Positions 2,069-17,097 of a DNA stretch of 64,000 nt are shown here, in pieces. The first letter of the stretch is position 1, and every line of letters starts with the position of its first letter. Position numbers and translations under genes: made by a program. Origin of the DNA: Rhodospirillales bacterium (lineage in GTDB: Bacteria > Pseudomonadota > Alphaproteobacteria > Rhodospirillales > WMHbin7); contig JACRPC010000041.1 in NCBI GenBank assembly GCA_016214125.1, positions 1 to 64,000 on the forward strand. Reading direction: 5' to 3'. The notes under the pieces were generated by a model. It was not told the origin of the DNA. It searched no databases and saw only the letters and a list, made by a program, of their open reading frames with translations.

Positions 2069-3452
2069 TGCGAACGCGTTCGATCTGGTGGTGGTGGGCG
2101 GCGGACCGGGCGGCTATGTTGCCGCCATTCGCGCCGCGCAATTGGGCATGCGGGTCGCCTTGGTCGAAGCCCAGCATCTGGGCGGCATCTGTCTCAATTG
2201 GGGCTGCATCCCCACCAAGGCCTTGCTGCGCTCGGCCGAAATCTATCACCTGATGCGCCATGCCGAAGCGTTCGGCCTGAGCGCCGGAGCGCCCGGCTTC
2301 GATCTGGCCAAGGTGGTGGCGCGCTCGCGCGCCGTGGCCGGCCAGTTGCAGACGGGCGTCAAGCATCTCTTGAAGAAGAACAAGGTCACCGTCATCGAGG
2401 GCCGCGCCAAACTGGCCGGCAAAGACAAGGTGGCGGTCGAGAAAGGCCCGGTTCTCTCGGCGCCGCATATCATCCTGGCCACGGGGGCCCGCGCCCGCTC
2501 GATCCCCGGTTTGGAACCCGACGGCCAACAGGTCTGGACCTACAAGGAAGCCCTGGTGCCGCCTTCGATGCCGAAATCGCTCTTGGTGGTCGGCTCGGGG
2601 GCCATCGGCATCGAATTCGCAAGCTTCTTCAACACGCTGGGCGCCAAGGTAACGGTCGTCGAAGTGCTTGATCGGATTCTGCCTTTCGAGGATGCCGAGA
2701 TTTCCGCCCTGGCGCGCAAGGCTTTCGAGAAACAGGGAATGACCATCCTCACCGGCGCCGCCGTCAAGGGACTGGCGAAAACGCCCGGGCTGGTCACCGC
2801 CACCGTCGATCAGGGCGGCAAATCGATGAGCGTCGCCGCCGAGCGGGTGATCGTGGCGGTGGGCGTGTCGCCCAACAGCGAGAATCTCGGCCTGGAAGGG
2901 ACGGGGGTGAAGCTCGATCGCGGCTTCATCGTCGTCGACGATTATTTGCGCACCGGCGAGTCCGGCATTTACGCGATCGGCGATGTCGCCGGTCCGCCTT
3001 GCCTGGCGCATAAGGCCAGCCACGAGGGCGTGATCTGCGTCGAGAAGATCGCCGGGTTGGCCGATGTCCATCCGCTCGACAAGCGGTCGATCCCGGCGTG
3101 CACTTACGCCCATCCCCAAGTCGCCAGCGTCGGGCTTTCCGAAGCGGCGGCCAAGGAGAAGGGCTACACGGTCAAGGTGGGCCGCTTCCCCTGGATGGGC
3201 AACGGCAAGGCGATTGCCCTGGGCGATACCGAAGGTCTGGTGAAAACGATCTTCGACGCCAAAACCGGCGAGTTGTTGGGCGCCCACATGATCGGCCCCG
3301 AGGTGACCGAGATGATCCAGGGCTATGTGGTGGCAAAGGGACTGGAAACCACCGAGGCCGATCTGATGCACACCGTCTTCGCCCATCCCACGCTTTCCGA
3401 GGCGATGCATGAGGCGGTGCTTGACGCTTATGGCCGGGCGATCCATTTCTAA
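2061..3452 (+). CDS. lpdA: dihydrolipoyl dehydrogenase (E3)
   Basis: FAD-dependent E3 reoxidises dihydrolipoyl groups with NAD+ in 2-oxo acid dehydrogenase complexes. The 463-residue length fits the family. An N-terminal GGGPGGYVAA dinucleotide-binding motif is followed by the redox disulfide in GGICLNWGCIP (C44 and C49). A second nucleotide-binding motif lies in VVGSGAIGIEFASFF, and the C-terminal FAHPTLSE supplies the catalytic His (about 442). The ATG is preceded by AAAGG and overlaps the end of the HD-GYP gene. It probably serves the PDH complex encoded just upstream. Confidence 0.95.
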   Translation: MSDANAFDLVVVGGGPGGYVAAIRAAQLGMRVALVEAQHLGGICLNWGCIPTKALLRSAEIYHLMRHAEAFGLSAGAPGFDLAKVVARSRAVAGQLQTGVKHLLKKNKVTVIEGRAKLAGKDKVAVEKGPVLSAPHIILATGARARSIPGLEPDGQQVWTYKEALVPPSMPKSLLVVGSGAIGIEFASFFNTLGAKVTVVEVLDRILPFEDAEISALARKAFEKQGMTILTGAAVKGLAKTPGLVTATVDQGGKSMSVAAERVIVAVGVSPNSENLGLEGTGVKLDRGFIVVDDYLRTGESGIYAIGDVAGPPCLAHKASHEGVICVEKIAGLADVHPLDKRSIPACTYAHPQVASVGLSEAAAKEKGYTVKVGRFPWMGNGKAIALGDTEGLVKTIFDAKTGELLGAHMIGPEVTEMIQGYVVAKGLETTEADLMHTVFAHPTLSEAMHEAVLDAYGRAIHF

Positions 3453-3458
3453 CCGGCC

Positions 3459-4352
3459 ATGACCGCCATCCCCACGCCGCTTCGCAAACCGTCCTGGATA
3501 CGGGTCAAGGCCCCCACCGGGGCCGAGCACGCCGAAACCCGCAAGCTGTTGCGGGGGCTTTCGCTGCACACGGTCTGCGAAGAGGCGGCCTGCCCCAATA
3601 TCGGCGAATGCTGGAGCCAGAAACACGCCACGGTGATGATCTTGGGCGATGTCTGTACCCGCGGCTGCGCCTTTTGCAACGTCGCCACCGGCAAACCGCG
3701 CCCCGTCGACCCGCTTGAGCCCGAGCATGTGGGGGAGATGGCGGCACGGCTTGGCCTGCGCCACATGGTGGTGACCTCGGTCGATCGAGACGATCTGGCC
3801 GATGGCGGCGCGGGGCAATTCGCCCGCGCGATCGAACGCATCCGGGCGCTCTCGCCCGGAACCTCGATCGAGGTGCTGGTGCCCGATTTCTTGAACAAGC
3901 CCGGCGCGCTCGAGATCGTGCTGGCAGCTCGGCCCGACGTCTTCAACCACAATCTGGAAACCGTGCCCCGGCTTTATCCCTCGATCCGGCCGGGCGCCCG
4001 CTATTTCAACTCGCTGCGCCTCTTGGACGACGCCAAGCGCCAAGCGCCCGACCTGTTCACCAAATCGGGCATCATGGTGGGGCTGGGCGAGGAAACCAAC
4101 GAGATCGTCCAGGTGATGGACGATCTGCGTCAGGCCCAGGTCGATTTCCTTACCATCGGCCAGTATCTGCAACCGACGCCCCAGCATGCGCCGGTGGCGC
4201 GTTTCGTGCCCCCCGACGAGTTCGACGAACTGGCCCGCAAGGCCCGCGCCAAGGGGTTCCTTTTGGTGATGGCGACGCCGCTCACCCGCTCTTCGCACCA
4301 TGCCGATCGCGATTTCGAAGCGCTGAAGGCCGCTCGGAACGCCCGCGCATGA
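3459..4352 (+). CDS. lipA: lipoyl synthase
   Basis: This 297-residue radical SAM enzyme inserts two sulfurs into octanoyl-lysine to make lipoyl groups. Both iron-sulfur cluster motifs are intact: the auxiliary cluster in [12 protein letters not shown] (C40, C45, C51) and the radical SAM motif CTRGCAFC (C66, C70, C73). It starts 6 nt after lpdA, so the cofactor enzyme is made with the complex that uses it. Its stop overlaps the next start as ATGA. No lipB is seen in the window. Confidence 0.96.
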
Positions 4353-8318: not shown

Positions 8319-9300
8319 GTCCGGGCTCGGCCGCGATCGCCTCTCGATAGAGCGCGGCATCGACATTGCCGCCCGAGAGCACCGCGACGATCGTTTTTCC
8401 CTTGGTCTCGATCCTTCCGGCCAGCAAGGCCGCCAGCGCCACCGCGCCGCCCGGCTCGACGACCAGTTTCAGATGGTCGAAGGCGAACCGCATGGCTTGG
8501 TGCACCTCGGGGTCCGAGACGCACACCGCCCCGGCCTGAAAACGAGACAGCAGGGCGAAGGGGCGCTCGCCCGGCCGGGGCGCCATCAGGGCGTCGCAGA
8601 TCGTTTTTCCGTTGCCGGAATTCTCGACGAACCGGCCAGCGGCCAGCGAGCGGCCGGTATCGTCGAAGCCGGCGGGTTCGGCCACCCAGACCCGGGTTTG
8701 CGGCCGAACCTCCGATAGGGCGAGCGCGACGCCCGACGACAATCCCCCGCCGCTGCAGGGCACCAGCACCGCATCGATCGCCGATCCTTGGGCCTGGCGG
8801 TCGATTTCCAAACCGATCGTTCCCTGGCCGGCGATGATGTAGGGGTCGTCATAGGGCGGCACGATGACGGCGCCTTGCGCGTCGGCCAAGGCCTGACCAA
8901 TGGCCTCGCGGCTTTCCCGATCGCGGTCATAAAGAACGATCGTGGCGCCCAAGTCGCGGGTGCGGGCGATCTTGGCCGCCGGCGCATCCTTCGGCATGAT
9001 GATGGTGGCCTTGCAACCGGCCAATGCGGCCGCCGCCGCCACCCCTTGGGCGTGATTGCCCGAAGACCAGGCGACGACACCGCGTGCCCGCTCGGCGGCG
9101 GAAAGGCGGCCGATGCGGTTCCAGGCCCCCCGGAATTTGAAGGAGCCGGTCCGCTGCAGCATTTCCGCCTTGACCAGGATGCGCCCGCCTAGGCGCGCAG
9201 ACAGTTCCGGACATTCGAGGAGCGGCGTAACGACGGCCCGCCCGTCGAGATGGCGGGCGGCGTCTTGCACCCAGGCGAAGGTCGGCAGATCAGGCGCCAA
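8299..9300 (-). CDS. fold-type II PLP enzyme, threonine/serine dehydratase family
   Basis: The product (333 residues) aligns by eye with threonine dehydratases and 3-hydroxyaspartate ammonia-lyases. It has VVTPLLECPELS near the N-terminus, the PLP lysine in RTGSFKFRGAWNR, SSGNHAQGVA, and the glycine-rich phosphate loop in PCSGGGLSSG. Likely chemistry is elimination of water and ammonia from hydroxy-amino acids; the exact substrate is open. No ATG fits, so I chose TTG at 9300, which gives MAPDLPTF and overlaps the HAD gene stop. GTG at 9270 is an alternative. There is no C-terminal ACT domain, so no allosteric isoleucine control is expected. Confidence 0.87.
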   Translation of the reverse strand: MAPDLPTFAWVQDAARHLDGRAVVTPLLECPELSARLGGRILVKAEMLQRTGSFKFRGAWNRIGRLSAAERARGVVAWSSGNHAQGVAAAAALAGCKATIIMPKDAPAAKIARTRDLGATIVLYDRDRESREAIGQALADAQGAVIVPPYDDPYIIAGQGTIGLEIDRQAQGSAIDAVLVPCSGGGLSSGVALALSEVRPQTRVWVAEPAGFDDTGRSLAAGRFVENSGNGKTICDALMAPRPGERPFALLSRFQAGAVCVSDPEVHQAMRFAFDHLKLVVEPGGAVALAALLAGRIETKGKTIVAVLSGGNVDAALYREAIAAEPGLTPSPS

Positions 9301-9967
9301 GCAGGGCCGGGAGTTCGGAAAGGCTCTTGATTTCGCCCGAGAGTTTGCCGGGCAAGGGCTCGCGCCGGGCGCCCAGCCGATTGATCCAGACCGATTGGAA
9401 CCCGAAGGTGGCGGCCGCCGCCGCGTCCCAATAATTGCCGGAAACGAAGCCAACCCGCTGGGCCTCGATGTCGAAATGCTGGGTGACCATTTCATAGACA
9501 GTGGGGTGCGGCTTGAAGATGCCGATCCGGTCGACCGACAACACGGCATCGAGAACGCCGTCGAGTTTGGCATGGCCGGACGCCGCCACCAGCATGCTGC
9601 GCGAACCGTTGGACAGAATGCCGGTGCGCAGCCCCAGGCCTTTCAGCCTTTCCAGGGTCGGACGCGCATCGGCATAGGCGTCGAGCGTCAGATAAAGCTC
9701 CATCAGACGGGCGCGCAAGGGAGCATCCGAAATGCCCAGATTGTTCATGGCGGTGTCGAGCGCCTCGCCGGTGACGTGCCAGAAATCGACGAAACGGCCC
9801 ATCAGGCTGCGCAGCCAGGTGTATTCCAATTGCTTCTGGCGCCAGAGCTGGGCTAGGGATTCCGCCTTAGAGCCAATGGCGTTCTGGCAGCGCCGCACTG
9901 CGGCGGCGACGTCGAACAGGGTGCCGTAGGCGTCGAACATGCAAACCGAAATGTCGTCGACTTTCAT
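9290..9967 (-). CDS. HAD-superfamily haloacid dehalogenase type II
   Basis: This 225-residue protein has the (S)-2-haloacid dehalogenase pattern. The nucleophile Asp sits in FDAYGTLFD, the second motif is ILSNGS, the lysine is in IFKPHPTVYEM, and the C-terminal motif FVSGNYWDAAAA corresponds to the SxNxWD element. A helical cap lies between motifs I and II. Family members hydrolyse 2-haloalkanoates, but many homologues have unknown physiological substrates. Its stop overlaps the probable start of the PLP enzyme. Confidence 0.87.
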   Translation of the reverse strand: MKVDDISVCMFDAYGTLFDVAAAVRRCQNAIGSKAESLAQLWRQKQLEYTWLRSLMGRFVDFWHVTGEALDTAMNNLGISDAPLRARLMELYLTLDAYADARPTLERLKGLGLRTGILSNGSRSMLVAASGHAKLDGVLDAVLSVDRIGIFKPHPTVYEMVTQHFDIEAQRVGFVSGNYWDAAAAATFGFQSVWINRLGARREPLPGKLSGEIKSLSELPALLGA

Positions 9968-9992
9968 GGGCTATCCCTTTCGTCTTCGGGCC

Positions 9993-11984
9993 TCAATTGC
10001 TGGCCGGGCGCTTGAGATCGCTGGCCAGCGAATAGGCCAATTCGGTGGCGCCCAGGCGGCGCCGGTAAACCTGCAAACTCTCCATAACCCGTTGCACGTA
10101 ATTGCGGGTTTCGGTAAAGGGGATCATCTCGATCCAATCGATGGCGTCCACGTCGCGGTCGCGGGGGTCGCCATTGTCGCGCGACCATTTCGACACCCGG
10201 CCCGGCCCGGCATTGTAGGCCGCCAGCGCCATGATATAGGAGCCGTTGAAGATGTCGAGCAATTGGCCGAGATAGGCGACGCCGAGTTTGACGTTCAAGG
10301 CCGGGTTGGCGGTCAGTTGCTGCGGCTTTTGGTAAGGGACCTTGAGCGATTTGGCCAAGCTCTTGGCGGTCGCTGGCATCAATTGCATCAGGCCGCGCGC
10401 GCCCGCCGAGCTGACGGCTTTTTCGTTGAAGCCACTTTCCTGGCGAATCAGCGCCAGGACCAAGGCCTTTTCCGGAGAAACGCCGCCGTTGGGCGTCTCG
10501 ATCTTCAGGTGATCGGGCATCGGCCAGCCGGAAGTCCCCAGGGTAACGCCCTCCCGATCGGCCCGCCTTGCCACCAGCACGGCCAGATCGGTCCGCGCGT
10601 GGCGCACCGCCAGTCCGGCCGCTAAGGCCTTCAGGCCCGGCCGGTCGGCCAGTTCATGCAGGCGAAGGATGAAGGGACGTATGAGGTCGGACGCGTCGGC
10701 CTCGGCCAGCAAATTCACCGCCTGCGCCAATTCGTGCCCATTGAAGGCCTCGATGTCCTCGGGCGAGGGCAGGGGATCGGAGGGCAGCGGCCATTGCCCC
10801 TCATGGTCGAACTTCGCGGCGGCCAATTGGCCATAATAGCTGGTGACGAAATTGGCGGCGTTGCGATACCACTCGCGCGCCGTTTCCGGTTGCCCAAGCG
10901 CCTCGGCGGCCCGCCCGGTCCAATAGGCGCCACGCGCCCGGGTCACCGAGGTCTGCGCCGTCTCGTAGAGATGCTTGAAATGACGGTAGGCGACTTCCTT
11001 GTCCTCAAGGAAGCGCAACGCGATCCAGCCGGCCATCCATTCCGCCTCGGCGAAGCCGGCACCCTCGCGCAGCCCGTGTTCCCGGACGATCTGGTAGGCT
11101 TCGGAAATATAGCCTTTCTGAAAGGCCTTTCGGGCGATGAGGGCGCGCTCCGGCCACCAAAGATCGGGGCGAACCAGATCGGCCGGCGGGCTTTTGAGAA
11201 TTTGGATCGCGTCGTCGTATTTCTCCTTGCGCCTCAGCCAGCGCAACCGCTCGAAAACCAAGCCTGGGTCGCTGCGCAGCCCCGCCGGAATCTTGTCGAG
11301 CGCCGCCTGGATATTGCCCTTGGCGCCGATCAAGGCCAGCCGGGCCTGGGCCAATTGCTTGTGTGCGGCATCGACCCGCAGGATTTGCCGGCGCGCGGCA
11401 TCGAGTTGCTGGTCCCATAGCAGGCGATCAAGCCGTGCCGAATCATCTTCGGCCCGCAGATGGTGGCGGAAGCGATTGAGGAATTGGCGTTCCTGGAGCA
11501 CGCCGAAGGTGCCGCCGACCCAGGCCTCGCGCAGGAGTGCGACACCCCTTTCGCGCTCGCCCTTATCGAGAAGAGCGGCGCCCAGGGCGGTCTTGCCGTC
11601 GACGGTGAGCGGCGAGCGCTTTTCAAACCAGGCGATGATGTCGCCGGCCGGAGTCGAGGGGGCGATGGCTTCCTCGGCCCGTCTTTGCAAGGCGTTGGGT
11701 TGCGGCCAGTCGGTCGCCTGCTCGATAAACAGGGCAATTTCTTCAAAGCTTGCTCCCGAGCCGGCCCGCGAATAGTCGAGCCAGCGCACCAAACGCTTGG
11801 GAAGCGGATGGTCGATCCCCTCGGCGGTCTTGCGGGCGGCGCTCCACTTGTCGGCCTGGGCCATGGTCAGGGCCTGGCGGGCCTGGCGCGCTTGCTCGGG
11901 CGTGAGGGGGGCGGGCGGATCGGCCAGGGCTGGCCCGGCCAGCGCAAGAGCCGTCAACAAGGCACCGAGAAAAAAGATCCGCAT
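9993..11984 (-). CDS. slt: soluble lytic murein transglycosylase (Slt70-like)
   Basis: The 663-residue product has a signal peptide (FFLGALLTALALAGPALA), a long alpha-helical superhelix, and a C-terminal SLT domain. The catalytic Glu (about E516) is in IRQESGFN, followed by GARGLMQLMPATAK and AYNAGPGRVSKW. Slt enzymes cleave the MurNAc-GlcNAc bond to leave 1,6-anhydroMurNAc. The ATG at 11984 is chosen because it gives a clean signal peptide; the frame is open further upstream but without family-like sequence. It is divergent from dapA, which supplies the diaminopimelate pathway. Confidence 0.92.
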   Translation of the reverse strand: MRIFFLGALLTALALAGPALADPPAPLTPEQARQARQALTMAQADKWSAARKTAEGIDHPLPKRLVRWLDYSRAGSGASFEEIALFIEQATDWPQPNALQRRAEEAIAPSTPAGDIIAWFEKRSPLTVDGKTALGAALLDKGERERGVALLREAWVGGTFGVLQERQFLNRFRHHLRAEDDSARLDRLLWDQQLDAARRQILRVDAAHKQLAQARLALIGAKGNIQAALDKIPAGLRSDPGLVFERLRWLRRKEKYDDAIQILKSPPADLVRPDLWWPERALIARKAFQKGYISEAYQIVREHGLREGAGFAEAEWMAGWIALRFLEDKEVAYRHFKHLYETAQTSVTRARGAYWTGRAAEALGQPETAREWYRNAANFVTSYYGQLAAAKFDHEGQWPLPSDPLPSPEDIEAFNGHELAQAVNLLAEADASDLIRPFILRLHELADRPGLKALAAGLAVRHARTDLAVLVARRADREGVTLGTSGWPMPDHLKIETPNGGVSPEKALVLALIRQESGFNEKAVSSAGARGLMQLMPATAKSLAKSLKVPYQKPQQLTANPALNVKLGVAYLGQLLDIFNGSYIMALAAYNAGPGRVSKWSRDNGDPRDRDVDAIDWIEMIPFTETRNYVQRVMESLQVYRRRLGATELAYSLASDLKRPASN

Positions 11985-12087
11985 CGGGCTCCGCAAGGTT
12001 ATCGATCGCGCCCAGGGTGGGGCCGAATCGAACGAATGATAGGCGTCCGTGACGAAGCCAACAAGCCATTCCGATCGCTGGGAGCGC

Positions 12088-12116
12088 TTGTGTGGCGACG
12101 CGGCCAAGGCTATCTT
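12088..12116 (+). promoter_or_regulatory. possible sigma-70 type promoter for dapA
   Basis: TTGTGT (12088-12093) and TATCTT (12111-12116) are separated by 17 nt, 35 bp upstream of the dapA ATG. Both hexamers depart from consensus, so this is only a candidate. An alternative -10 is TATACG at about 12129-12134. Confidence 0.3.
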
Positions 12117-12150
12117 CGGCCGGTTCCTGTATACGCCCACGGAGAGAGCC

Positions 12151-13029
12151 ATGTTCAAGGGAGTGATTCCCGCCCTGGTGACGCCCTTTACCAAGGCGGG
12201 CGCCGTCGACGCCAAAGCCTATCAGGATTTGATCGCCTGGCAGATCAAGGAAGGCGTGGGCGCCGTCGTGCCCTGCGGCACCACCGGCGAATCGCCCACG
12301 CTCTCGCACAAGGAACACAAGCGCGTGGTCGAGTTGGCGGTCGAAGCGGCCAAAGGCAAGAAGGTTCCGGTGATCGCCGGCACCGGCTCGAATTCGACCG
12401 ACGAGGCGATCGATCTGACCCGTTCGGCCAAGAAGGCGGGCGCCACGGCGGCGCTGGTCGTCACCCCCTATTACAACAAGCCCACCCAAGAAGGGCTCTA
12501 TCAGCACTACAAGGCGATCCATGACGCGGTCGATCTGCCGATCGTCATTTACAACATTCCGGGCCGCAGCGTCATCGACATGACGGTCGACACCATGGGC
12601 CGGCTGGCCAAGCTGCCCAACATCATCGGCGTCAAGGATGCGACCAACGACCTCACCCGTCCGCCGCGCACCCGCAAGGCCTGCGGCAAGGATTTCTGCC
12701 TGCTGTCGGGCGAGGACGGAACCCAGATGGCCTTTCTCGCCATGGGCGGACAAGGCTGCATCTCGGTTACCTCGAACATCGCGCCCGGCCTTCTGGCGCA
12801 AATGCATGCCGCCTGGGCCAAGGGCAACGTCAAGACGGCGATGGCGATCAACGAAAAACTGATGCCGCTGCACGACGCCATGTTCTGTGAAACCAATCCG
12901 GCGCCGGTCAAATACGCGCTGAGCCTTCTTGGCCGGGCCCGACCCGACGTGCGCTTGCCCTTGGTGCCGATCACCGAGGCTTCGCAGAAGAAGGTCCAGG
13001 CCGCGATGCAGGCGGCGGGACTGCTGTAG
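12151..13029 (+). CDS. dapA: 4-hydroxy-tetrahydrodipicolinate synthase
   Basis: DapA condenses pyruvate with aspartate semialdehyde in lysine and diaminopimelate synthesis. The 292-residue length is typical. The Schiff-base lysine is K162 in IGVKDAT, with Y134 in IVIYNIPGR. The GTTGES motif binding the pyruvate carboxylate is present, as is [14 protein letters not shown] 12151 is preceded by GGAGAG; an open upstream extension to 12049 is not conserved-looking. It leads a block with smpB and the Mo enzyme. Confidence 0.96.
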
Positions 13030-14245: not shown

Positions 14246-15811
14246 ATGGGGCGTTATATCCGCACGATCGCTTTTGGGTTTTCGCTTGTCGTGGCAGCGA
14301 TGGCCGCCGGCGCCGACGCTCTGGCCTCTCCCCAATCCGAGGCGCTGATCAAGGCCGGCATCGCCAAGCTGCAGAAGCTCGATTTCGGCGCCGCGCTTAC
14401 CGATTTCGATGCCGCCATCGCCGCCGATCCTGCCGACGGGCGGGCGCTCTACTATCAGGGGTTCGCCTTGAACCGATTGGGCCAGCATGGTGGAGCCTTC
14501 GCCGGCTTCCAGCAGATGCGGCTCAAGGGCACCACCCATCCGGAATTGGATTACGAGCAAGGCTGGGCGGCGCTGGCGACGGGGCGCTTCAACACCGCCG
14601 TCGTCATTCTTGAACCCTATGAAAAGCGCCGGACCGACAACGGCAAGGCCAGCGAGTTCCTGGGGCGCGCGTATCTCGGTCTTGGCCGGCTCGATGATGC
14701 CGAAGCCGCGCTCAAGCGCGCCATCCAGCGCGACGTCAACACCGCCTCGACCTCCTATTTTTACCTGGCCGAGATCGAGGCGATGCGTGGTCAGAAGGAC
14801 CGCTCGCGTCAAGCCATCAATCAGCTCCTGCAGACGGCGCCCAACACCCCGGTCGGCAACGCGCTGCGCAGCCTGGCCCAGGCCCAACCGGCGACCCCGG
14901 GAAAGGACGCCAAGCCGCCCAAACCCTGGTCGGCCTATGCCGGACTGGCGGTGGGTTACAACAGCAACGTCATTTCGCTGAGCGACAGCATCGTTCGGCC
15001 CCAAGATATCCGCGACACCGGCTCGCCCTCTTACCAGATCGATGTCGGGGGGCAATACCGCTTCGATCTGACCGCAGCCAGCGCCTTGTCGGTCGGTTAT
15101 GCCCTAAGTTACGTGAATTTCCCGGAAATGGGCCGCCAGGATCTGTTCGATCAAGGTCTCTTTGCCCGTTACGAACATCGCTTGGCGGACATCTGGATGC
15201 CCTCCTTCCAGATCAGCGGCTCGCACGGACGCGTCGATGGTGACACCTTCCTCAACAGCGTTTCCTTCCGCCCGGCCTTGGCCGTGCAGCCGACCGAGTC
15301 GTTGGCCCTTGAGATCTATTACAGTCGCAATTACGCCGACTACAACGACCCCAACCAGACGCCGCAATTCCTCAATCGGGATTCCTGGCAGAACGTCTAT
15401 GGCGGACGCATCTCGGCCAAGATGGCGCCCTTGCGTACGATGGGCGAAGTCGGAATCGCTCATATCGACAACAATTCCGAAGGCAGCGATTTCGATTACT
15501 CGGCCCTCCAGGCCCATGTCAGCCTCGCCACGTCTTGGCCTTGGCAGATCACCAGCCTGGCTCAGGTAAAATTCACCGGCTACCACTACGACCACCGGAA
15601 CAGCATGGCGCCGACCAGCCCGCCCAGTGCGGTTGCCTTCGGCCACGCCCGCGAGGACTTTGCCGTCCAGACTCTGGCGAAAGTGTCGCGTCCGATCTGG
15701 GGGGCGGTCGATGGCTACGCGCAGTACCAGTTCACCGACAACAATTCCAACATCGCAGTTTACAATTTTCATCAGCATGACGTCCGTGTGGGCGTCGTGG
15801 CTCGGTTCTAG
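14246..15811 (+). CDS. TPR-containing outer-membrane beta-barrel protein
   Basis: The 521-residue protein has a signal peptide (to about ADALA), then a tetratricopeptide region (about 30-225) with repeats such as GAALTDFDAAIAADPADG and LDDAEAALKRAIQRDV. The C-terminal half (about 230-521) is rich in alternating aromatic and polar residues and ends in a terminal Phe (VGVVARF), the outer-membrane barrel insertion signal. The periplasmic TPR plus barrel layout resembles surface lipoprotein assembly modifiers and related exporters. It lies 14 nt upstream of the secreted mosaic protein, so a role in its display or export is plausible but unproven. Confidence 0.8.
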   Translation: MGRYIRTIAFGFSLVVAAMAAGADALASPQSEALIKAGIAKLQKLDFGAALTDFDAAIAADPADGRALYYQGFALNRLGQHGGAFAGFQQMRLKGTTHPELDYEQGWAALATGRFNTAVVILEPYEKRRTDNGKASEFLGRAYLGLGRLDDAEAALKRAIQRDVNTASTSYFYLAEIEAMRGQKDRSRQAINQLLQTAPNTPVGNALRSLAQAQPATPGKDAKPPKPWSAYAGLAVGYNSNVISLSDSIVRPQDIRDTGSPSYQIDVGGQYRFDLTAASALSVGYALSYVNFPEMGRQDLFDQGLFARYEHRLADIWMPSFQISGSHGRVDGDTFLNSVSFRPALAVQPTESLALEIYYSRNYADYNDPNQTPQFLNRDSWQNVYGGRISAKMAPLRTMGEVGIAHIDNNSEGSDFDYSALQAHVSLATSWPWQITSLAQVKFTGYHYDHRNSMAPTSPPSAVAFGHAREDFAVQTLAKVSRPIWGAVDGYAQYQFTDNNSNIAVYNFHQHDVRVGVVARF

Positions 15812-15825
15812 GGGAGGGCAACGCC

Positions 15826-17097
15826 ATGCGCCGCGCCATTATCGTCCCTGGTCTGGTTTCGCTGGCCGCCCTGGCGCTGGCTTCCGGTCCGGCCTTGGCC
15901 TGTACCGGCGGGGCCAACGATCCCTTCCAGTGCATCGGCAACAACCAAGCCATCAACGGCTTTTCCAATTTCTTCCTCACCAATCTTCAGCCGGTGCCGG
16001 GTGCGCCCTCGCAAATCCTGGATTTCGGCGGCGAACTCGGCGGCCCGATCATCAAGGACCGGCTGTGGTTCTGGGGCAGCGGCAACCGCAATCAAGTCAT
16101 CTATGATTTCGGTGCGATCGAGGAAATCGAAGTCCGGTCCGGTGGGGCGGACACCTCGCAACTGACTGGCGGCATCGGCATCAATATCGTCAGCGCGCGC
16201 GGCGCGAACCTCGTCAATTACGGCGGCAAACTGTCTGGCCAGGTAACGGCCGAGAACGAAGCCAACATCTTCTTTGATTTCGGCGACAAACAGAAGATCG
16301 GGCGGGTATCCGACATTCCGCAAACGACCTGGGATCAGCGTCCCGGCCCGGTGCTGCTGCTGCCCAATTTCCCCATGGACCCCAACCAGCCGACGACGCC
16401 CGGTCAATTCCAATTGAACCCGGATGGGGCCTTGTTCGTCAATTCGTTGCCGGGGGCACCGATTTCCATGGCGCCATCGGCGCCGCTTTCGCCGCCATCA
16501 GCGGAAGCGGTGCGCGACGACGCTGCCCGCGCCGCCTTTTTCCGCGAATTGGATGTGGCGATCACCAAGGATCGGGTTCTTCAGGGCAGCGGTGCGAAAT
16601 CGACCCTTGAACAGAGCGAAAAAGGTCTCAAGGAGTCTCTCGACAAACTGAACGACGCCGAACGCGCCCTTAACAGGCCGGTTCTGATCGGGGGCTTGGA
16701 GACGCCGATCGGCGGCCAGGCTTTCGACACCAGCCTGATTACCAGCTTCACCGGCGGGCTCGGGGGGGCAGGAGCACAAACGGCCGCCATCGACGTCTAT
16801 CTGTTCGACAACGCTGGTGGCCGGCCGATGCAGTCGCCGACCGGCCGCGAGGTTTGCTCGCCCTGCACGCTTTCCCCCGACGCGTCGGGAAAGAAGGCGC
16901 GCATCGGCATCGATCGGCTGATCGGGTCGGCGGGCGGGCTTGGCGCCGTGAAGACCGGCTACGCGGTTCTGGTTGTCCAATCGGGCAATGCCGACGCGGT
17001 CGGCCTCACCGATTTCGTCGTCAACAGCCACGGCAGCGCCCTCGATCTGGCGGTCTTCGGTTTCGAGCCGCAACCGATCGGCGGAGCGACCAACTAA
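15826..17097 (+). CDS. secreted protein of unknown function with reordered TonB-receptor-like motifs
   Basis: This 423-residue protein has a signal peptide (about 1-25, ending ALA) and a good ribosome site (AGGGGAGGG). Residues 69-85 contain LGGPIIKDRLWFWGS and residues 95-128 contain EEIEVRSGGADTSQLTGGIG. Residues 131-171 read NYGGKLSGQVTAENEANIFF and then TTWDQ. These resemble short stretches of Oar/carboxypeptidase-like TonB-dependent receptors, but the plug-like piece comes after the barrel-like piece and no barrel follows. The rest (about 200-423) has a probable coiled coil (LEQSEKGLKESLDKLNDAE) and unrecognised sequence, with a Cys pair in CSPC. Function unknown. Confidence 0.75.
   Translation: MRRAIIVPGLVSLAALALASGPALACTGGANDPFQCIGNNQAINGFSNFFLTNLQPVPGAPSQILDFGGELGGPIIKDRLWFWGSGNRNQVIYDFGAIEEIEVRSGGADTSQLTGGIGINIVSARGANLVNYGGKLSGQVTAENEANIFFDFGDKQKIGRVSDIPQTTWDQRPGPVLLLPNFPMDPNQPTTPGQFQLNPDGALFVNSLPGAPISMAPSAPLSPPSAEAVRDDAARAAFFRELDVAITKDRVLQGSGAKSTLEQSEKGLKESLDKLNDAERALNRPVLIGGLETPIGGQAFDTSLITSFTGGLGGAGAQTAAIDVYLFDNAGGRPMQSPTGREVCSPCTLSPDASGKKARIGIDRLIGSAGGLGAVKTGYAVLVVQSGNADAVGLTDFVVNSHGSALDLAVFGFEPQPIGGATN

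Follow-up and report, generated by a model that had tools for sequence, protein, structure and literature searches.

Introduction

Type XI secretion systems (Slam; DUF560/SlipAM, PF04575) place a TPR and β-barrel protein beside a cargo with a signal peptide and a variable effector part, and PMC12282271 describes predicted cluster 1 type XI cargo as unified by a C-terminal barrel domain. Two other families enter the comparison made here through the cargo itself: Oar-type TonB-dependent receptors (PF25183), in which the plug precedes the barrel and three sequence blocks, termed A, B, and C below, read A-B-C; and the Gram-negative porins (PF13609). A third, the ASRT/TM1070 superfamily, comprises small-molecule-binding β-sandwich domains (PMC2739507).

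We describe a gene pair from a draft Rhodospirillales genome, located in a window of 64,000 nucleotides (the whole stretch of DNA analyzed). Its second product, P0001, resembles Oar-type receptors in all three blocks at the sequence level, but carries them in the order B-A-C within about 115 residues, with neither a barrel nor a CarboxypepD_reg domain detectable by Pfam. Its first product, P0002, has the TPR-plus-barrel plan of type XI systems, yet scores below the SlipAM cut-off, and the shared part of the cargo is N-terminal here. We put the probability that P0001 and P0002 form a two-gene pair for export across the outer membrane, with P0001 as its cargo, in the full form proposed in the Discussion, at roughly 45%. 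In the literature that we covered, mostly papers readable without subscription, we found no description of permuted receptor fragments in secreted cargo.

Results

Layout of the P0001 gene

P0001 is an intact open reading frame with codon use broadly that of its neighbors, and its start codon lies 14 bp past the stop codon of P0002. The features of the pair, in window coordinates, are the following.

14246–15811, forward strand: P0002, 521 residues, with a signal-peptide-like start, TPR repeats at about residues 37–210 and a C-terminal β-barrel-like region ending in Phe.
15826–17097, forward strand: P0001, mosaic protein, 423 residues, ATG start (ORF list and translation).
15826–15900, forward strand: signal-peptide-like leader, P0001 residues 1–25, with ALA just before Cys26 (by eye).
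15901–16005, forward strand: N-motif, residues 26–60, with Cys26 and Cys36, common to other products encoded behind TPR-barrel genes.
16009–16095, forward strand: block B, residues 62–90, the GGPIIKDRLWFW segment of Oar-type receptors (Pfam, tblastn, profiles).
16096–16209, forward strand: block A, residues 91–128, the end of the receptor plug, which precedes B in receptors (tblastn, profiles).
16210–16353, forward strand: block C, residues 129–176, the receptor segment after B (tblastn, profiles).
16354–16680, forward strand: linker, residues 177–285, Pro-rich, then charged and probably helical (by eye).
16681–17088, forward strand: C-terminal extracellular repeat domain, residues 286–421, with VCxPC and NSH...DL motifs (tblastn to three loci, alignment, model).

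Third-position GC lies between 0.72 and 0.83 in every part of the gene, as in neighboring genes, and the codon index ranges from 0.65 to 0.88 across the parts (0.72 for P0002), so that no part looks recently imported. The genome is a draft of 54 contigs, which would allow the block order to be an artefact of assembly, but the block seams lie in frame within one intact reading frame and the blocks have host-like codon use, making such an artefact extremely improbable. A scan for promoters and terminators gave no signal exceeding shuffles, and a Pfam search returned no match for the linker.

Receptor blocks and their order

A first-pass annotation of this DNA had proposed a secreted protein assembled from reordered TonB-receptor-like motifs. 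The resemblance to Oar-type receptors was borne out, with blocks A, B, and C all matching, and a profile search split the P0001 alignment to receptors into pieces in swapped order, as had been anticipated. Using a profile running from the plug to the first strands (eight receptors), residues 39–86 aligned to profile positions 96–144 (41.4 bits), residues 91–133 to positions 40–82 (25.2 bits), and residues 129–176 to positions 168–218 (10.3 bits); the total of 77.1 bits compares with 5.4 bits for the best of 2000 shuffles of P0001. Rewriting P0001 into receptor order brought no overall gain (70.1 bits), with B and C fusing into one 41-bit piece. Two of the motifs originally pointed out bracket the plug-like piece (IEEIEVRSGGADTSQLTGGI, residues 98–117); the second (NYGGKLSG...TTWDQ) does lie at 131–171, but the first (LGGPIIKDRLWFWGS) occupies residues 71–85 rather than 69–85.

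Block profiles built from six receptors scored 34 (A), 49 (B), and 23 bits (C) for the best stretch of P0001, which ranks first for each block among 905 ORFs (those of the window and ten other loci), the next best ORF reaching about 6 bits or less. The peptide patterns used to fetch these receptors overlapped parts of B and C, and the scores of those two blocks are thereby favored; no fetching pattern fell within block A, which therefore constitutes an unselected test. A profile of two distant receptors found via Pfam recovered block B alone (18.0 bits, against 7.8 for the best of 2000 shuffles). Pfam itself matched residues 48–87 to PF25183 positions 26–63 (E = 3.3e-4); the score of 19.6 bits misses the family cut-off of 30, and the 38 of 838 profile positions covered do not make up a full barrel domain. 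The annotation's statement that no barrel follows also held, in that Pfam detects no receptor barrel behind the blocks, and CarboxypepD_reg was likewise not found by Pfam in P0001.

One scan of genome contigs, which constitutes the whole of our Acidobacteriota coverage, yielded 11 loci with similarity to one portion or another of P0001. Four of these are receptors of Acidobacteriota/Thermoanaerobaculia MAGs in which tblastn places the match to P0001 residues 93–128 (93–144 in one) upstream of the match to residues 62/63–171/179, the reverse of their order in P0001. We surveyed block order in 796 ORFs of at least 200 residues from 127 sources, counting those with at least two blocks detected and merging overlapping loci: the order was A-B or A-B-C in all 14 ORF entries other than P0001, corresponding to 11 distinct receptors (six that had built the block profiles and five that had not), and B-A-C was found in P0001 alone. 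The swapped order thus stands, and B-A-C as the usual arrangement, which had been named as the contrary case, was seen in none of these 11. In P0001, block A sits at the B/C junction, and the protein lacks the spacers that receptors have between A and B and between B and C. Comparison of the sequences suggests both the permutation and a receptor origin of the blocks.

Other candidates from these searches were set aside: a match in genome G726 that by position spanned the B-A junction proved to be an ordinary receptor, and one in G071 an Oar-like receptor. A match in G070 covers P0001 residues 175–261 and contains one stop. No evolutionary intermediate of the permuted blocks was found. The P0001 genome (98.94% complete) yielded no other PF25183 match, so no receptor donor is seen there. 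An Aminicenantes MAG carries two tandem Oar-type receptor genes (locus L013, 3310–6816 and 7032–9986), both A-B-C.

A 21-nt direct repeat (76–81% identity) occurs at window positions 16016–16036, 16211–16231, and 16271–16291, so that one copy lies at or close to the start of block B, one likewise at block C, and one within C; a similar GATTTCGG stands at the start of block A. These repeats at the seams may represent microhomology used in shuffling, or may encode the receptor's own D-F/Y-G residues.

The description of P0001 as a receptor-derived mosaic is supported for the three blocks but not for the whole protein, since only about 115 of its 423 residues are receptor-like: residues 1–60 belong to a leader family and the last ~135 residues form an unrelated repeat domain.

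The C-terminal domain

Residues 286–421 belong to a repeat domain of ~125 residues with VCxPC and NSH/NTH...DL motifs, which occurs in surface-type proteins of several phyla (L006 4516–7257, L005 7839–9122, L007 2–655). A Fibrobacter protein contains two copies, a Pyrinomonadaceae protein four, and a Deltaproteobacteria MAG protein one, the best copies showing 42–46% identity to P0001 by tblastn; neighboring elements in the Fibrobacter and Pyrinomonadaceae proteins are FG-GAP repeats or a T9SS sorting tail. Alignment indicates that the P0001 copy keeps the motifs of its relatives. Pfam gave no coverage of the domain in P0001, P0008, or P0009, and a PDB sequence search with it found no match.

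The domain was modeled as a β-sandwich with middling confidence (pLDDT 63.0, pTM 0.59). Foldseek returned nothing significant with this model (best E = 0.041); in a second structural search the leading matches were TM1070 and the Anabaena sensory rhodopsin transducer, the top four entries being 1nc7 (Z 7.7, 97 residues aligned, 3.1 Å) and 2ii7, 2ii8, and 2ii9 (Z 5.4–5.8), followed by a carbohydrate-binding module (Z 5.2). With Z under 8 from a middling model, we treat the domain as possibly ASRT/TM1070-like, a lead.

Residues 1–225 of P0001 were less amenable to modeling (pLDDT 47.8, pTM 0.25, uninformative), with only residues ~90–130, block A, reaching pLDDT 63–72. A PDB sequence search with P0001 found antibody light chains only (E = 0.21 or worse), and NCBIfam gave nothing useful.

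The leader and the TPR-barrel gene pairs

By eye, the N-terminus of P0001 is signal-peptide-like, with an AxA site followed by Cys26; this start, together with the Cys pairs, suggests that P0001 is probably secreted and may be soluble. Residues 1–60 have counterparts in two proteins encoded on a different contig of this genome (60% identity over 50 residues, 48% over 64), and the N-motif recurs in proteins of genomes G354, G457, G441, and G444. The similarity fades past residue 60–80 and the bodies behind do not align; some BLAST rows extend with gaps to residue 96 or further, an extension beyond the N-motif that we take as chance. At locus L004 of the P0001 genome, the second TPR-barrel gene and the genes for its two N-motif proteins are followed (9069–12396) by two more Pro-rich, secreted-looking paralogues of 418 and 743 residues, both with SCPWDQPNCLAGKPPPPGVPSG and internal repeats; cargo-like genes have thus expanded locally.

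P0002 matches TPR_16 in Pfam (E = 1e-14) and SlipAM below cut-off (E = 0.019, 15.0 bits, cut-off 22). Among its relatives, the paralogue P0005 just passes (22.3 bits), P0007 scores 15.9, P0004 and P0006 are not listed, and another relative passes the BBP2_2 cut-off instead. In a PDB sequence search, the P0002 family profile found, among 60 of 220 matches, TPR proteins over the TPR part or fusions of such, while the barrel profile alone gave nothing useful. Searching 385 genomes of the class with P0002, and genomes of one family, of the order, and of the class with a profile of five barrels, we identified ten strong TPR-barrel loci across eight genomes, all with a barrel E value of 4e-63 or lower. 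The P0001 genome contributes three, and G354, G457, G444, G441, G368, G015, and G466 contribute one each; the profile had been built from five of these ten. It matched 4 of the 24 genomes searched in the family, 6 of 248 in the order, and 9 of 385 in the class. Weak matches were left out (G502 and G510, with barrel ORFs lacking TPRs; G009; and six in the class, G153, G181, G195, G239, G284, and G347). The G502 and G510 relatives are barrel-only proteins of 346 residues (L070, reverse complement, 3167–4207; L071 3786–4826), and in L070 an Ala-rich ORF of 562 residues, FecR-like by eye, adjoins the barrel gene on the opposite strand. No P0002 relatives were found in plasmids.

At all ten loci, a same-strand gene follows directly, at −4 to +30 bp; its product looks secreted and has an N-terminal Cys pair, the two residues 8–12 apart. 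The N-motif of the P0001 type is present in six of the ten cargo-like proteins, P0001 included, and the other four show different Cys motifs. This arrangement bears on whether P0002, as a protein of the PgaA/BBP2 type, instead exports a polymer or serves as an ordinary outer-membrane channel, with P0001 a periplasmic or surface accessory not transported through it. Polysaccharide exporters, too, combine TPRs with a barrel (PMC8406197), and the relative above the BBP2_2 cut-off fits with such a role, but we recognized no polymer synthase by eye among the neighbors of the loci examined, and a cargo-like gene stands next at every locus; we consider this reading unlikely.

The same arrangement must be weighed against the idea that P0001 arose by evolutionary accident, when a leader gene captured foreign coding pieces, and is an unfolded or useless protein that has not yet been lost. 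Beyond its own genome, no full-length relative of P0001 was found in 60, 385, and 398 genomes (overlapping sets), none was found in plasmids, and viral contigs gave one pattern match and no relative; the permuted cores lack their receptor spacers, and residues 1–225 model with low confidence, all of which would fit an accident. Speaking for retention, however, are a frame open over 423 codons with neighbor-like third-position GC throughout, a C-terminal domain that has preserved its motifs, and a gene position that recurs in all ten pairs. We regard an accident as a rather unlikely explanation, if one to be taken seriously.

Bodies of the putative cargo

The bodies of these proteins differ greatly among the ten loci. 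The cargo of G354 (P0003) and its G457 relative, 53% identical to each other, both match Porin_4 (PF13609) above the cut-off of 27 (35.2 and 36.1 bits, respectively), and are colinear over their front part with true porins (BLAST E down to 2.6e-10), as judged from BLAST rows to proteins that end like porins (L104, L107, L114, L120, and L121); with P0001 these two share the leader only. Both (L051 4851–6473 and L065 4500–6428) have a Pro-rich tail with an FxDGFExG-like end, and in the G457 cargo a tail block of ~75 residues is duplicated. The G441 and G444 cargo have a common end region (47% over 81 residues), and those of G015 and G466 are alike.

As a bare count, two separate captures of sequence from outer-membrane proteins are thus seen, spread over three of the ten loci. 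Phages and bacteriocins usually bind receptor loops. The two unrelated captures, receptor and porin, behind one leader could mean that the body of P0001, once secreted, imitates outer-membrane receptors and porins or acts as a decoy for them, for instance against phages, bacteriocins, or the ligands of competitors; yet P0001 holds only the end of the plug and the first strands, misordered and without a barrel, the loops usually bound are absent, and at seven of the ten loci neither Pfam nor inspection by eye shows a body of the outer-membrane-protein kind, so that a decoy is very unlikely.

Discussion

We propose that P0002 is the outer-membrane export partner of P0001, with its TPR domain presumably in the periplasm. 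In the scheme that we favor at somewhat under even odds, the signal peptide would bring P0001 to the periplasm, where a Cys26–Cys36 disulfide would close the N-motif; the TPR part of P0002 would recognize this motif, and P0001 would pass the outer membrane via the P0002 barrel. Once outside, it would act by way of its C-terminal domain, which would bind a ligand or surface. As the probable source of the receptor block we envisage an Oar-type receptor from another genome; duplication and deletion would then have reordered the block (e.g. A1-B1-A2-B2-C minus A1 and B2), which was retained as β-rich body material. We infer the export, solubility, and function of P0001 in this scheme.

Several observations count for the export pair: the TPR repeats of P0002; the adjoining Cys-pair cargo-like gene at ten of ten loci; the common N-motif before bodies that do not align; the second, porin capture behind the same motif; the recurrence of the C-terminal domain beside FG-GAP repeats or a T9SS tail in proteins of the surface type; the intact reading frame with neighbor-like codon use; and the lack of any further PF25183 match in the genome. 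Counting against it are the SlipAM miss of P0002 (its paralogue barely passing, another relative passing BBP2_2), the other Cys motifs in the cargo of four loci, the lack of a full-length P0001 relative in the genomes searched, and the uninformative model of residues 1–225.

A more specific version, which we hold as doubtful if worth stating, is that the TPR-barrel partner reads the N-terminal Cys-loop leader only, such that bodies could be swapped like cassettes and recruited from outer-membrane proteins, here in permuted form. By analogy, we propose that the pair works like a type XI system with an N-terminal recognized signal, and we do not class it as type XI, given the SlipAM miss of P0002 beside a paralogue that just passes, the BBP2_2 match of a relative, and a cargo without the C-terminal barrel domain by Pfam (the eight-stranded barrel, TbpBBD/lipoprotein C, gave no match in P0001 at E up to 10, and the C-terminal domain models, with middling confidence, as a β-sandwich).

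If the leader alone directs export, an outer-membrane translocon would here be addressed by a targeting signal at the N-terminus, whereas known type XI cargo has a C-terminal domain in this role. Permuted receptor motifs in an intact gene would be a natural case of shuffling on a scale finer than entire domains, and would illustrate how new bodies arise in secreted proteins.
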